Position numbers and translations under genes: made by a program
Notes under the pieces: generated by a model
Database searches by the model: none
What the model was told of the DNA's origin: nothing
The model's input: the letters and a program-made list of their open reading frames with translations, nothing else
Shown here: one piece after another, positions 950 through 10,892 of the stretch
Numbering within the stretch: the stretch's first letter is position 1
How the letters are laid out: every line of letters starts with the position of its first letter
Assembly (NCBI GenBank): GCA_945915085.1
Contig: CAMEET010000016.1
Location: 1 to 34,353, forward strand
Source of the DNA: an uncultured Treponema sp.
GTDB lineage: Bacteria > Spirochaetota > Spirochaetia > Treponematales > Treponemataceae
Reading direction: 5' to 3'
Length of the DNA stretch: 34,353 bases

Positions 950-2194
950 ATGAAAAAGGTATTGATTTCTGACAACTATCCGCTTTTTAGGGACTTTTTA
1001 AAACAAAAACTTTCAGAAGAACAGATTGAAATTATCACGACACAAAAAAACCGCGATTTGTATACAAAACTCATCACAAATCTGCCGAATCTCCTTATTC
1101 TGGATTTATCAGATGAAGATTCTCTTGACATGGATTTCCTTCAAAAAAAACTTTCAGATTCAAATACCGCAAACATTCCCATAATCATCACAGGTCCTCG
1201 CAAAGACCGTTCCTCAATTGCATCCCTTGCAAAATATGGAGTAATCAAATATTTTGAAAAACCAGTTCAGTTTGATTTACTTTTCAAATCAATAGGAAAC
1301 ACAATCCACGTTCCTATCCCAATGGACACAACTCCTTGCGTGCTAGATTTACATCGCAACAACAAAGTCATCTTTATTGAACTTGCACTCGGCTTAAATC
1401 GAGAAAAAATGTCACTCATGCGTTTCAAACTTTCAGAAATGATAGAATCCGAAAAAATCGAAAGTCCAAAAATCGTAATCATGCTCACAAACTTGGAATT
1501 AACATTCGTGGACGGCTACAACCTTGAGTTTTTGATTGACAATGTTCTTTCCTGCCCTCGAGTTCATAATAAAAATGTAAAAATACTTTCGCTAAGTCCA
1601 TTTGTAAAAGAACTTTTAGACGGTCATCCAAATTACTCAGAAATTGAAATGTCGAACAATCTTTCACGAGTTTTAAATGACCTTGTAGACACATCACTTT
1701 CCACAAATATCCCGGATATCATCACAAGTCAAATCCTCACAAAAACAGATATCGAAAGAATGGATAAAGACAGCATGGCAACAAGATTTTCTTCCGATTC
1801 AATCGATAAAACAATCAAGAATAATGCTGGAACTGTTTTAAGCGTTGCCATAATTGACAGTGATGAAAGCACACTCGAAATCTCCAAAAACAGTTTCGAA
1901 CAAATCGGCGCAATCTGCCAATGTTTTACAAAAGGCAAACAGTTTATCGAAAATTATGCAGAAGGAAAATTTGATTTAATAGTATTAGATGTCCTTCTCG
2001 AAGATAAAACAGGACTTTCACTTCTGCAGGTTTTACAGAAACGACCTCATTCACCGCCAATCATCGTTTATTCACAAAGCCTGCAAAAAGAAATTGTTGT
2101 AAAAGTTTTGAGCAGCGGAGCAAAATCTTACATCGTCAAACCACAAAAACCAGATGTTTTCGTAAGAAAAGCACTCGCTGTATTAAAAAATTAA
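950..2194 (+). CDS. REC - STAS-like - REC response regulator
   Basis: A 414-residue cytoplasmic signalling protein with two receiver domains flanking a middle domain. The N-terminal receiver (about 1-120) has acidic D8, likely phosphoacceptor D52 (LILDLS), T81 and K104 (EKPV). The C-terminal receiver (about 297-414) has IIDSDE (303/305), phosphoacceptor D347 (VLDVLL), S375 and K397 (VKP). Between them, about residues 130-250 alternate beta and helix like a STAS/anti-sigma-antagonist fold (IVIMLTNLELTFVDGYNLEFL); this domain call is inferred. No DNA-binding or enzymatic output domain is visible, so output is probably by protein-protein contact. No kinase gene is adjacent. The gene stands alone, preceded by an extended -10 and followed by repeat A. 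Stop-to-next-gene distance is 292 bases. Confidence 0.8.
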   Translation: MKKVLISDNYPLFRDFLKQKLSEEQIEIITTQKNRDLYTKLITNLPNLLILDLSDEDSLDMDFLQKKLSDSNTANIPIIITGPRKDRSSIASLAKYGVIKYFEKPVQFDLLFKSIGNTIHVPIPMDTTPCVLDLHRNNKVIFIELALGLNREKMSLMRFKLSEMIESEKIESPKIVIMLTNLELTFVDGYNLEFLIDNVLSCPRVHNKNVKILSLSPFVKELLDGHPNYSEIEMSNNLSRVLNDLVDTSLSTNIPDIITSQILTKTDIERMDKDSMATRFSSDSIDKTIKNNAGTVLSVAIIDSDESTLEISKNSFEQIGAICQCFTKGKQFIENYAEGKFDLIVLDVLLEDKTGLSLLQVLQKRPHSPPIIVYSQSLQKEIVVKVLSSGAKSYIVKPQKPDVFVRKALAVLKN

Positions 2195-2486: not shown

Positions 2487-3374
2487 ATGATCAACAAAAA
2501 TTTTCAAAACAATAATAAAATAAGCCATTCGATGACAGAAGGAAAAATAAATTTTCATACTCACAGCACTTTTTGTGATGGAAAAAATTCCCCCGAAGAA
2601 ATAATTCAAACCGCCATAAAAAAAGGATTTTCAGTTCTGGGATTTTCCAGTCATTCCATTTATCCTTTCGCAGAAACATGGCACATTTCTCCAAACGAAC
2701 ATCATCACTATGTTGAACAAATCAGACAACTTTCTCAGAAATATCAGAATGAAATAAAAATTCTATGCGGATTTGAAGCAGATTTTTTACCGCCTTACTC
2801 TAAACTCCAAGAAAATCAATTTGCAGCTTTTGAACCAGATTATTTGATTGGAGCCGTTCATTACGTTTCAAATCAAAACGGATGGCTTACTGTAGATGAT
2901 TCAGCCGAAAATGTCCAGAAAGGAATTGACCAGATTTTTCAAGGTGATGGAAAAGCCTGTATATGCGAATATTTTGAAACACAGCGAAAAATGATTTCAA
3001 CAGGAAGATTCAATATTCTGGCTCACCCAGATTTACCGCGCAAACGAAACGGACTTCTCCACTTTTTTGATGAAACAGAAACCTGGTATAAAGAACAGAT
3101 TATTCAAACAGTTCGTACAATTGCAAAAACAAATCTTACAGTCGAAATAAACACTGGCGCAATTGCCCGTGGTGTCATGGACGACGTATATCCGTCACAA
3201 TTTTTCTTGGAAAAACTGTTTGAGGCAAAAGTTCCAATCTGCATAAACTCAGACTGCCACAATGCCCCACAACTAGATGCCGCTTTCGACAAAGCACAAT
3301 CAATCGCCAGAAAAATCGGCTACAAAGAACTCGTCTACCCTACTTTCAAGGAAGACTTCATCGTCAGATTGTAA
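2487..3374 (+). CDS. PHP-domain phosphoesterase, histidinol-phosphatase-like
   Basis: A 295-residue PHP-family metal-dependent phosphoesterase resembling the HisJ/HisK histidinol-phosphatase group. Metal-binding motifs are visible in order: FHTHSTFCDG (about 23-32), FSSHS, GFEADF, GAVHYV, LAHPDL and NSDCHN near the C terminus; EINTGA precedes the last. Start 2487 is chosen because AAAAAGAG lies 6 bases upstream; a later ATG at 2532 (MTEGK) has no Shine-Dalgarno. The family performs the penultimate step of histidine synthesis or hydrolyses other small phosphates. No his genes are nearby, so the substrate is open. It converges on the dksA-type gene with only 37 bases between stops. Confidence 0.82.
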   Translation: MINKNFQNNNKISHSMTEGKINFHTHSTFCDGKNSPEEIIQTAIKKGFSVLGFSSHSIYPFAETWHISPNEHHHYVEQIRQLSQKYQNEIKILCGFEADFLPPYSKLQENQFAAFEPDYLIGAVHYVSNQNGWLTVDDSAENVQKGIDQIFQGDGKACICEYFETQRKMISTGRFNILAHPDLPRKRNGLLHFFDETETWYKEQIIQTVRTIAKTNLTVEINTGAIARGVMDDVYPSQFFLEKLFEAKVPICINSDCHNAPQLDAAFDKAQSIARKIGYKELVYPTFKEDFIVRL

Positions 3375-6577: not shown

Positions 6578-9502
6578 CTATTTAATTCTGAAAGTTTCAG
6601 GTGCTCCCAAATACGATTTTGGCATTTCTTTTCCAGCATCATAAATCACAATTTTTTCCAAAACTACATTTGGAGTCACAGGATAAATTCTTAATGTGTT
6701 AATTCCATCACTACAACCGGATGCAACTGTACAAATTCGGATGTTATTTGTGATGTCATTTCCCCAAGTGTACTGATTATCCCCAACTGTAAATCCTTTT
6801 TTTGCGGCAACCACAGTCATTTTTTCACCATTTATTTCGGCAATAAATTCTACGCCACATGATTTATACGCTGGATTCGAAGGATTAATATAAAAATCAA
6901 ATACTTTTGTACCAGCCGATTTTGGAACAAATTTATATTCCACAAAAGGAGCTTTTTTTCCTTCATCATAAGAATTTATCACAGGATAAGCTTTCACTGC
7001 ACCCAAAGTTTTTCCATAACCTTCAAGCACTTCAAAATGACCATTTACAACGCCCGATTTTTCTTCTTCCAGTGATGAAGTTTTTACAAAATGTTCTGCT
7101 TCCATGCTGATGTAATTTTCTGTCTGCACAAATGTTCCCACTGGATATTCCATTTCTGCCACAGCCGCATCAATTTCCACAAACACTTTAATTCCAGCAC
7201 CATGTCCGTCTTTTGCTTCAAAAATCAAAGTATCTTTTTTGTTTGATGATTTTGCAAGTTTTTCACGGTCAACTGTCACAACAATCTGATCAATCTGAGA
7301 AACACAAGGTTCGCCCCAGCATGATTCGTGTTTTTCAATTTTTGCTGCTAAGAACAGTTCATTAGGATTTTTTTCATTTGCAAAACTGATTTTGTATGAT
7401 GGCAATTCTTTTCCACAGTTTGCAACATTCAGTTTGAATTCCGCAGTTTCAGGATTTTTGAATCCATCATATTTAAATACTCTGTTTGTCCAATCCTGAC
7501 CACTCGTAGTTACATCGCTGCCATCCAACCAGAATAAACAGCGTCCTTTTCTCGTTGGTTCAACATAAGTGTATGTCGGATAATGACTTTCAGCTTCACA
7601 CCAGTTTTTAAATCCAAAATGTTCAGACCAACCGGATGCAAAGAATTTTCCACCGTCAACAGCATCACATTCATCCACAAGTTTCTGGTCGTACTCATAA
7701 CATTCTTTTACTTTCTGTGCGTACCAGTTTGCAGCCAAAGCACCATGTTTTGCAAACCAAACATTTTTTCCGCTGTAAAGCTGCATGCGCAGAACATTCA
7801 TAACTCCGCAAGCCGGCAGATAAACTTCCAGGAAATAACCTGGCAACAAATTTTCAGGCATTTTTGATTTCAAATTTTCAGCTTTTTCTATAATTCTGTT
7901 TGCTTTTTCTAGCAAAATATCACTTTCATTAAAATTCACAGGAGCATAAGTGTCATTTTGAATACACTCAGTTCGACGCATATTTGCAATCTTTGTAAAA
8001 TCATTTAAAATTTCACAGATTTCTTTTTTATCACCTGTTTCCAATCCACCAAAATTCCTGTTGACCCAAGCTGCAGTATAATCAAAAGTGCTTTGAACAC
8101 TTGTTTTTTCGTAGTTGTAAGCTAAATCAAGGAAATAAGCGAGAGGAAATTCGTTTGTCATCACATCACCGACATTTACAATCCACAAATCACGAATTCC
8201 AAATTCATAAGCAGCACACATCTGTTCTTTTACTTTTGGCAGATAATTTGTATTAAACCATTCGTAGCTGAAAGGCCATCCATGATAATCAAAATGATAA
8301 TACATACCATATCCGCCTTTATGATTTCTCATTTTTTCAGTCGGCACAGTACGGAGATTTCCATGGTTATCATCACAAAGCATGAGTGTCACACCTTCAA
8401 GTTCAGGACTATCCATAAGTCCCTGCGTTGTGTCATCACCATAAAAATACGGTTCAACTTCCTTGTATAAAGCAAGCATTCTAGGCACATTATCAAGATT
8501 TTCATCAACATTTTCTTTGATAAGCTGATTTTGTGTTTTCAAAACATCACGGAGCAAATCAATATTATCTTTCAAAGTTGCATTCTGCATGATTGCAGTG
8601 TCAGCTTCACCACGCATTCCCACTGTGATAACATTTTCAAATTTTCCGTTACGTTTCAAACCGTCTTCCCAGAATTTTGTAATACCTTTTTCATTCGAAC
8701 GGAAATTCCAAGCATCACCATAAACAGAACCAGGACCACGAAGATATTTATATTCTTCACCGGCACGGCAACAAGGTTCGTGATGGCTAGCTCCCATAAT
8801 TATGCCAAGTTCATCAGCAAGTTCAGCATTTTCAAGGCCAGGACCATCATCACTAAAACGAGAAGCCCACATTGCAGGCCACAAATAGTTACCTTTCAAG
8901 CGCAGTAAAAGTTCAAAAACATGCTCATACATCTTAGCATTAACGCCACCAAAATTATGTCCGCTCCAGTTTCCAAAAGCAGGCCATTCATCATTAATAA
9001 AAAATCCGCGAAAGCGCACACTCGGTTCATTCGCATAAAAATCAATTTCAGGAATTTCCACACAATCTTTATGCTCAGGAAGCAAATCAGCCCAATCTAC
9101 TAGCGGAGAAACTCCCATCAGTTCAGAAAGATGAAAAAGACCATAAATTGTTCCACGCTTGTCCGACCCAATTATAATGATACTATCGCAAGAAACTGCA
9201 AAAACATAACATTCACGCTTACCGCGAATTCTTTCCAATTCAAGATTGTTTTCTTTCGCAATTTTTTCAATTTTTTCAAGATTTTTTCCTGCAGGATTTG
9301 AAATCGTAGCAAAAAAAACTTTTGATTTTAACACATCGTTGGAAATATTCTCCGATTCTTCAAGACAAGGCTTTTTTCCAGTAACACGTTCCACATCAAG
9401 ACAAACTTTTTGTGCAATTTTTTTTACTCCAGAAAATTCATCATCAAAACAACAAAAACTTACAGATGATTTTCCATTAATTTCTTCTATTTTAAACATC
9501 AT
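6578..9502 (-). CDS. Glycoside hydrolase family 115, xylan alpha-1,2-glucuronidase
   Basis: A 974-residue enzyme that removes (4-O-methyl-)glucuronic acid side chains from xylan or xylo-oligosaccharides. Family features: an N-terminal domain ending in GTIYGLFHLSELMGVSPLVDWAD, then the core with RFRGFFINDEWPAFGNW, GNYLWPAMWASRF, GIIMGASHHEP and TVGMRGEADT; a C-terminal beta-rich region (about 640 on) matches the GH115 C-terminal domain. There is no signal peptide, so it acts in the cytoplasm on imported acidic oligosaccharides. A GAGG Shine-Dalgarno precedes two adjacent ATGs; the second (9499) has slightly better spacing. The GH8 gene lies upstream on the same strand, separated by 292 bases of repeat. 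Full length for the family. Confidence 0.92.
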   Translation of the reverse strand: MMFKIEEINGKSSVSFCCFDDEFSGVKKIAQKVCLDVERVTGKKPCLEESENISNDVLKSKVFFATISNPAGKNLEKIEKIAKENNLELERIRGKRECYVFAVSCDSIIIIGSDKRGTIYGLFHLSELMGVSPLVDWADLLPEHKDCVEIPEIDFYANEPSVRFRGFFINDEWPAFGNWSGHNFGGVNAKMYEHVFELLLRLKGNYLWPAMWASRFSDDGPGLENAELADELGIIMGASHHEPCCRAGEEYKYLRGPGSVYGDAWNFRSNEKGITKFWEDGLKRNGKFENVITVGMRGEADTAIMQNATLKDNIDLLRDVLKTQNQLIKENVDENLDNVPRMLALYKEVEPYFYGDDTTQGLMDSPELEGVTLMLCDDNHGNLRTVPTEKMRNHKGGYGMYYHFDYHGWPFSYEWFNTNYLPKVKEQMCAAYEFGIRDLWIVNVGDVMTNEFPLAYFLDLAYNYEKTSVQSTFDYTAAWVNRNFGGLETGDKKEICEILNDFTKIANMRRTECIQNDTYAPVNFNESDILLEKANRIIEKAENLKSKMPENLLPGYFLEVYLPACGVMNVLRMQLYSGKNVWFAKHGALAANWYAQKVKECYEYDQKLVDECDAVDGGKFFASGWSEHFGFKNWCEAESHYPTYTYVEPTRKGRCLFWLDGSDVTTSGQDWTNRVFKYDGFKNPETAEFKLNVANCGKELPSYKISFANEKNPNELFLAAKIEKHESCWGEPCVSQIDQIVVTVDREKLAKSSNKKDTLIFEAKDGHGAGIKVFVEIDAAVAEMEYPVGTFVQTENYISMEAEHFVKTSSLEEEKSGVVNGHFEVLEGYGKTLGAVKAYPVINSYDEGKKAPFVEYKFVPKSAGTKVFDFYINPSNPAYKSCGVEFIAEINGEKMTVVAAKKGFTVGDNQYTWGNDITNNIRICTVASGCSDGINTLRIYPVTPNVVLEKIVIYDAGKEMPKSYLGAPETFRIK

Positions 9503-9527
9503 TTCCTCACTTAATTTTTTTTTATTC

Positions 9528-9632
9528 GGGTGGCTTTTTGCTTCGCAAAAAACAGGCTATTCGCCCTTCACTAACGCTCATCCGCTTCCCTCGCTTCGCT
9601 CAGCCCAGTGGACTGCTTCGCAACTGCCACCC
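9528..9632. repeat. Dispersed repeat element A, copy 2
   Basis: Bounded by perfect terminal inverted repeats GGGTGGC (9528-9534) and GCCACCC (9626-9632). Internally TTTTTGCTTCGCAAAAA forms a hairpin. The remainder (ACAGGCTATTCG, CCGCTTCCCTCGCTTCGCTCAG, CCAGTGG) is shared with the copy at 2230. About 105 bases, no ORF; size and ends resemble a MITE. It lies between the GH8 and GH115 genes. Confidence 0.8.
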
Positions 9633-9652
9633 TTGTAAAAATCTTTTTTTTG

Positions 9653-9733
9653 CGAGTTTTAGCGTAGCGTTAAAAAAACTCGCGGCTCGTGCAAACTGCA
9701 TCAAAGTTGAAGTGCTAATCTATAGCACGAGCC
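9653..9733. repeat. Dispersed repeat element B, copy 2
   Basis: CGAGTTTTAGCG..TTAAAAAAACTCG hairpin followed by GGCTCGTGC (9684-9692) and GCACGAGCC (9725-9733). It is the near-exact reverse complement of the arms at 803-884, with a different 32-base loop. It directly follows element A copy 2. Confidence 0.8.
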
Positions 9734-9794
9734 ATCCTTGCCACAGTTTAAACTTTCTGCCACAGTTTACCCATATCCTCACATCTTACAGAAA

Positions 9795-10892
9795 CTAGTA
9801 GCTCTGATATTTTCCACTCAAAGCTAAAATTGCAAAAAAGTAAAGACAATTGTCATAATAACGGCGGCGACCAATACGCATTGGAGTATCCCACAAACGT
9901 TTCACAGCAGCCTTTGCTTTTCCCACAGCTTCACTGTCATTTTCGTCCACCGCAAGAGCAGCTTCAGCAACAGTTGCAATCAAACCGATTGGATGACGCG
10001 CATTTTTCTTTAATTCGCGACCATCAATCATATAATCTTTCAATTCTTCAGGTTTCTTGCCATCAAAGAATTTTATGATATTCGAAGCAATTTTTGAAAG
10101 TTCAGGAGTTTTTCCGCACCACAAAGCATCCAGCCCAATATTTGCAGCCACACGATAAGAATCGCTGAAGAAAGTTCCGTGCATTTTTTTCTCCAAAGGT
10201 TCACCTTCATCAGTTGCATATTCAGCAGCCAGTCCAGTTTCAGGATGACAAGCTTTTACAAGATATTTTCTGCTTGCCTCAGCAGCCGAAAGCCAGAATT
10301 CCTTATCACAAGAATCTGCATATTTTGCAAAAAGTTCATAAAAATGAGGAAGATGATAAGACGGGTCAGTAAAAGGACAGTTGCACACAAATCTGATATG
10401 ATGATATTTTTCATCCCACATTTTGCTAGGACCGTGAACAGCAGTTCTCAAAATCGCACGAGCTTCTTCCGTGTAATTAAAAATACCTTCACCATTTCCC
10501 CAGCGGTTTGCGGCAAAAAACAAAGCCATTGCAAAATATTCTTCGCCATCAGGAGCAGGTCCTTCCGCATTCTTTTTTCCGTCAGTTTGATTTGACCAGC
10601 AGAAAAATCCTTTGTTCGGACCATCTTCCAGATACATATTCACCCTAGCCCATTTCCAAATCCTGTCAAAGATGTCTTTTCTGTTCATCTGCAAAGCCAT
10701 CATCATACCATAAGACATACCTTCAGTACGAGCGTCATCGTTTCCAGTATCTTCCATGTAACCAGTATTATCAGGAGCATCAAAATAAAAATGATTAGGA
10801 TTTTTTGGATCAAAAATCTCATTCCAGCAGTCAATAACTTTGTTTTCAATGTCAAATTTCGAGTAACCGTACTCTTCAAATAAATTTCTCAT
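9795..10892 (-). CDS. Glycoside hydrolase family 8, reducing-end xylose-releasing exo-oligoxylanase type
   Basis: A 365-residue GH8 enzyme of the Rex type, which releases xylose from the reducing end of xylo-oligosaccharides. The signature DDARTEGMSYGMM carries the probable general acid E57; GFFCWSNQTDGKK and GPAPDGEEYFAMALFF follow as in Rex enzymes. No signal peptide, size typical for intracellular Rex, so it acts in the cytoplasm. A Shine-Dalgarno-like AAAGGTAG lies 13 bases before the ATG, rather far. GH115 lies downstream on the same strand, pointing to a joint xylan-oligosaccharide function. Could also be a general GH8 endo-glucanase, but the motifs and lack of export favour Rex. Confidence 0.87.
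   Translation of the reverse strand: MRNLFEEYGYSKFDIENKVIDCWNEIFDPKNPNHFYFDAPDNTGYMEDTGNDDARTEGMSYGMMMALQMNRKDIFDRIWKWARVNMYLEDGPNKGFFCWSNQTDGKKNAEGPAPDGEEYFAMALFFAANRWGNGEGIFNYTEEARAILRTAVHGPSKMWDEKYHHIRFVCNCPFTDPSYHLPHFYELFAKYADSCDKEFWLSAAEASRKYLVKACHPETGLAAEYATDEGEPLEKKMHGTFFSDSYRVAANIGLDALWCGKTPELSKIASNIIKFFDGKKPEELKDYMIDGRELKKNARHPIGLIATVAEAALAVDENDSEAVGKAKAAVKRLWDTPMRIGRRRYYDNCLYFFAILALSGKYQSY

Follow-up and report, generated by a model that had tools for sequence, protein, structure and literature searches.

Near the start of the window, as we call the whole 34,353-nucleotide stretch of Treponema DNA analysed here, we confirmed by translation a 414-codon open reading frame on the forward strand (positions 950 to 2194; ATG start, stop codon at 2192 to 2194). 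It encodes a protein of 414 residues in which two receiver domains enclose a domain with a predicted STAS fold (REC-STAS-REC). Pfam recognizes two Response_reg domains, with no convincing match in the region that separates them, and the AlphaFold2 model, computed from an alignment of 75 orthologs, places the alternating beta/alpha receiver folds at residues 1-120 (REC1, 950 to 1309) and 296-413 (REC2, 1835 to 2188). The STAS-fold domain occupies residues 125-247 (1322 to 1690), with its strands and helices spanning residues 131-245 in the full-length model, and is followed by a linker (residues 248-295; 1691 to 1834), which is modelled at low confidence, with pLDDT below 50 for much of its length, and is the least conserved segment. 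Downstream lie an intergenic gap (2195 to 2486), where most relatives carry a kinase gene, and, on the same strand, a gene for a PHP-domain protein (2487 to 3374). Within this gap lies an intergenic repeat about 120 bases long (2323 to 2445) that is dispersed through the genome, with at least 40 copies of 74-95% identity on many contigs (40 scored of 114 candidates). Further along the window, two adjoining genes for plant-fibre breakdown encode members of glycosyl hydrolase families 115 and 8 (6578 to 10892).

Foldseek searches with the full-length model returned only receiver and PleD-type matches, and the middle domain was therefore modelled separately. The isolated domain gave a confident model (pLDDT 92, pTM 0.86) with the element order beta-beta-alpha-beta-alpha-beta-alpha-beta-alpha, and each of its first 17 matches among solved structures was a STAS protein, with SpoIIAA, RsbV and stressosome/RsbS chains at the head of the list (top match SpoIIAA, 1til_B; E 2.9e-4, TM 0.60/0.66). 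A profile of the domain, compared with PDB sequences, likewise found SpoIIAA as its best match, which is weak (E 0.018) and covers nearly the whole domain; SpoIIAA accounted for three of the five profile matches under E 10. For the 75 full-length orthologs and for 74 isolated middle domains, the first 25 Pfam families with matches include no STAS model, so that the assignment rests on structure prediction and on this weak profile match. The models thus support a STAS fold for the middle domain, the refutable point of a preliminary description of this DNA, and bear out the order REC-STAS-REC proposed there, for both receivers by Pfam and for the middle domain by structure prediction.

The window protein belongs to a fully supported clade of 53 sequences (100% support; the window clade), in which conservation is highest in the STAS domain (mean identity 67%, against 65% for REC1 and 51% for REC2). 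Asp126, His135, Glu144, Asn150 and Lys153 are invariant throughout this clade. Two of these residues, Asn150 and Lys153, belong to the stretch Asn150-Arg-Glu-Lys153 (1397 to 1408), with which STAS helix 1 begins and which aligns with the SpoIIAA stretch GELDHH, and both are also invariant at all 81 loci where a relative carries a kinase with an Hpt domain. In the profile alignment, Asp188-Gly189 (1511 to 1516) corresponds to Asp57-Ser58 of SpoIIAA, so that the phosphorylatable serine that follows the conserved aspartate in anti-anti-sigma factors is absent here; the position is glycine in 52 of the 53 clade members. Relatives from other classes (L107-L111) carry an Asp-Ser motif, for example ADSIKL, with serine at the position of the SpoIIAA phospho-serine that is glycine in Treponema.

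The REC-STAS-REC gene is mostly single-copy and easily aligned. Full-length orthologs occur in 135 of 146 genomes of the genus, among them Treponema bryantii strains XBD1002 and B25 and Treponema sp. JC4 and C6A8, as well as in 121 of 197 genomes and 47 of 75 genera at the order level, and other classes of Spirochaetota carry the full-length architecture as well. Several small genomes in the phylum search gave no match, and neither did, in the order search, a 1.1 Mb genome of the same family (G158). The domain-architecture search across spirochaetes that had been suggested for this protein thus recovered a real architecture, and not the uncommon one that had been supposed: within Spirochaetota it is a common and conserved family. 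Outside this phylum, where genomes were covered by one pattern-seeded scan, the architecture may exist as well. The names 'REC-STAS', 'STAS-REC' or similar were not found in the open-licence papers searched. Compared with two close relatives, dN/dS is about 0.02-0.13 in every domain and segment, and by this measure the gene is under strong purifying selection; these low values and the 135 ortholog-bearing genomes rule out a chance reading frame or a pseudogene. The protein is a member of an old and widely shared spirochaete signalling family, in which two phosphate receivers stand around a probable protein-docking domain.

The active-site residues of the two receivers are incomplete in the same way. 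REC1 carries Asp8-Asn9 (971 to 976), the phosphoacceptor position Asp52 (1103 to 1105), Thr81 and Lys104 (1259 to 1261), with Asp52 and Lys104 present in 53 of 53 window-clade members. REC2 carries Asp303-Ser304 (1856 to 1861), the phosphoacceptor position Asp347 (1988 to 1990), Ser375 and Lys397 (2138 to 2140). The direct metal ligand equivalent to CheY Asp13 is thus replaced by Asn9 in the first and by Ser304 in the second, and neither domain holds the five residues of a phosphorylatable receiver. By the definition in use (PMC12632262), a receiver that lacks any of the five active-site residues is a pseudo-receiver, and since each domain matches Response_reg in Pfam and lacks the second metal-binding acid, both count as pseudo-receivers. 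Of the 'two complete receivers' described earlier, the phosphoacceptor aspartate and the lysine stand in both domains, and completeness does not. The second acid of REC1 is missing in nearly all Treponemataceae, even in those with a kinase, and that of REC2 was lost in the window lineage, whose locus has no kinase gene; the data therefore do not support the two separate phospho-inputs that the preliminary description had suggested. Within the window clade, the second-acid position of REC2 is serine in 39 of 53 members and the Asp-Asp pair is kept in five, while Asp303 (53/53), Asp347 (52/53), Ser/Thr375 (53/53) and Lys397 (53/53) are retained almost without exception.

In the relatives, the typical gene order is regulator, hybrid histidine kinase, PHP protein, dksA (on the opposite strand) and infA. 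Of 176 distinct ortholog loci, 103 have the kinase gene next to the regulator and in the same orientation, mostly with a gap within about 60 bp, and the encoded kinase has the architecture HisKA-HATPase-REC-REC, usually with a C-terminal Hpt domain and in several members with an N-terminal PAS domain. Nine of these kinases were tested by Pfam, which found HATPase and REC domains in all nine, HisKA in eight and Hpt in six. In deep-branching members of the phylum (L117, L119, L120), the kinase gene lies upstream and not downstream of the regulator.

The window clade presents a different picture, with an adjacent kinase in none of its 53 members and the regulator directly neighbouring the PHP gene, the third gene of the ancestral order. 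Because the kinase is adjacent in most relatives and missing throughout this clade, its absence from the window locus is, judging from the gene orders, derived. We detected no kinase remnant in the gap by tblastn with the kinase set. An unrecognized kinase ortholog elsewhere in the genome is likewise ruled out, as the best match there is only 27-29% identical; in the relatives G076 and G041, which also lack the ortholog, the best match reaches 31-33% identity. The genome is about 90% complete and the assembly may have missed a kinase, yet the locus is contiguous and the gene order is the same in near-complete relatives. Among the window proteins checked there is neither a kinase nor an anti-sigma factor, as the preliminary description had stated for the neighbourhood. 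A cognate hybrid kinase with an Hpt domain is thus present at 81 loci of relatives, and was found neither at the loci of the window clade nor in the genome of the window. Kinase and regulator do not strictly require each other in both directions, since genome G264 keeps a related hybrid kinase (L253, 5111 to 7066) although no REC-STAS-REC gene was found in it; this kinase gene follows a gene for a TPR-repeat-like protein.

The state of the neighbouring kinase tends to be mirrored in REC2. With REC2 scored as intact if it carries both acids, Asp347 and Lys397, the site is intact at 79 of the 81 loci whose kinase bears an Hpt domain, at 5 of the 17 whose kinase has none and at 18 of 73 without an adjacent kinase. 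At 25 loci the Hpt state could be scored only later, from further sequence or extended loci; 22 of them have an Hpt domain (REC2 intact in 21) and three do not, two of which, the sister pair L066/L067, have lost the REC2 site. Asp52 of REC1 shows no consistent association with the kinase or Hpt state. In a nine-member Treponema clade with Hpt-less kinases (L178, L183, L185, L187, L189, L193, L196, L198, L199), both phosphoacceptor aspartates are lost (D52N; D347G or E). Across 13 independent tree pairs that differ in Hpt-kinase state, about five changed in the expected direction, none in the opposite one and the rest stayed the same (median p 0.06), an underpowered comparison that makes the association between Hpt and REC2 suggestive and not proven. 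From these patterns, REC2 looks like the receiver that is tied to the Hpt domain of the kinase in the relatives. Since some kinase-less members keep intact sites, several of them inside the window clade (e.g., Treponema sp. JC4 and C6A8, L049, L050), the decay of receiver sites after kinase loss is not universal.

We infer that the output of this response-regulator family is the STAS domain and not a DNA-binding or enzymatic domain. Ancestrally, the soluble hybrid kinase encoded next door, with its C-terminal REC-REC-Hpt arrangement, would have handed phosphate from Hpt to REC2, and phosphorylated REC2 would then have altered the meeting of the STAS domain with a partner protein. REC1, which packs ahead of the STAS domain, was already a pseudo-receiver in Treponemataceae, and its role is probably a structural one. 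In the window clade, loss of the kinase gene from the locus and of the direct metal ligand from REC2, with Asp, Ser/Thr and Lys kept, would most likely have left a phosphorylation-independent STAS docking protein that is set by abundance, ligand or partner binding. This history, an Hpt-to-REC2 relay that controlled STAS docking and became kinase-independent here, is in our judgement the probable one. A role of the STAS domain in a protein-partner switch is possible.

The strongest competitor is a regulator that is still phosphorylated in this lineage, with an unlinked kinase or small molecules as the phosphate donors and with Ser304 and Asn9 only tuning the kinetics. REC2 may indeed be weakly phosphorylated by another kinase, as the window clade strictly conserves four of its five active-site residues; the near-invariance of its Asp, Lys and Ser/Thr, the presence of other hybrid-type kinases in the genomes and the five clade members with an Asp-Asp pair all fit this idea. 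However, loss of the direct metal ligand is a defining pseudo-receiver change (PMC12632262), and it coincides with the missing adjacent Hpt kinase, so that we regard continued phosphorylation as a serious though rather unlikely alternative to the kinase-independent docking protein.

A classical anti-anti-sigma switch, in which the STAS domain has an RsbW-type kinase as its binding partner and responds both to serine phosphorylation and to the receivers, would agree with the closeness of the fold to SpoIIAA, RsbV and RsbS and with a SpoIIE-STAS-HATPase gene set in the same genome. This RsbU-V-W-like set (SpoIIE-type phosphatase, STAS and HATPase_c_2 genes), the only one found, lies on contig C116, away from the window, and has a STAS protein of its own, and the loci examined share no neighbouring gene that was recognized as anti-sigma. 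The replacement of the SpoIIAA-type phospho-serine by glycine, nearly constant in the window clade, renders classical serine partner switching unlikely, and we give the anti-anti-sigma reading as a whole little credence; the C116 HATPase gene set counts as a candidate source of a STAS partner and as nothing beyond that. SpoIIE-type phosphatase and STAS genes occur together on contigs C116 and C51 (L215, L218, L219, L220, L224, L228), HATPase_c_2 being found on C116. That the protein is a phosphate sink or relay intermediate, its two receivers draining or passing on phosphate without an output of its own, would suit its lack of a DNA-binding or enzymatic domain and the hybrid kinase adjoining it in relatives, but is highly improbable in view of the strong purifying selection that persists in a clade with broken receiver sites and no adjacent kinase, and of a STAS domain that is the most conserved part.

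The kinase-independent docking protein that we favour shares features with several known systems. With SpoIIAA, RsbV and RsbS it has in common the fold, the order of strands and helices, the full-domain profile match and the aspartate aligned with SpoIIAA Asp57; unlike these, its STAS domain sits between two receivers, has glycine for the phospho-serine and has no listed Pfam STAS match. Multi-step phosphorelays of a HisKA-HATPase-REC-REC-Hpt kinase and a regulator are resembled by the relatives, where the kinase adjoins and the presence of Hpt tracks the integrity of REC2; the absence of a DNA-binding or enzymatic output domain sets the protein apart from the typical response regulators of such relays, and the window clade differs further in having no adjacent kinase. 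In SypE of Vibrio fischeri, a single receiver is flanked by a serine kinase domain and a phosphatase domain, and the STAS domain is supplied by a separate partner, unlike the arrangement in the window. The likeness lies in a multi-domain response regulator that works with a STAS protein, SypA (PMC10120452, PMC3610818). Pseudo-receivers and atypical response regulators (PMC12632262, PMC4395418) correspond in the missing second metal acid, the retained first acid and lysine and the orphan gene; they differ in that the window protein retains the phosphoacceptor aspartate and has its STAS domain set between two pseudo-receivers.

According to a 2025 review (PMC12632262), the way in which pseudo-receivers are turned on and off is a mystery. 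The REC-STAS-REC family spans loci that have a kinase with Hpt, a kinase without Hpt or no adjacent kinase, which makes the step from phospho-receiver to pseudo-receiver directly testable. We propose tentatively, and with less assurance than for the window lineage itself, that a phylum-wide phosphorelay with STAS output repeatedly became kinase-independent, its receivers turning into metal-free pseudo-receivers after loss of the Hpt domain or the kinase. If this is true, the family would offer a natural experiment on the origin of pseudo-receivers and on the control that remains to them. The partner of the STAS domain is a further concrete question, from rumen Treponema to other classes of Spirochaetota.
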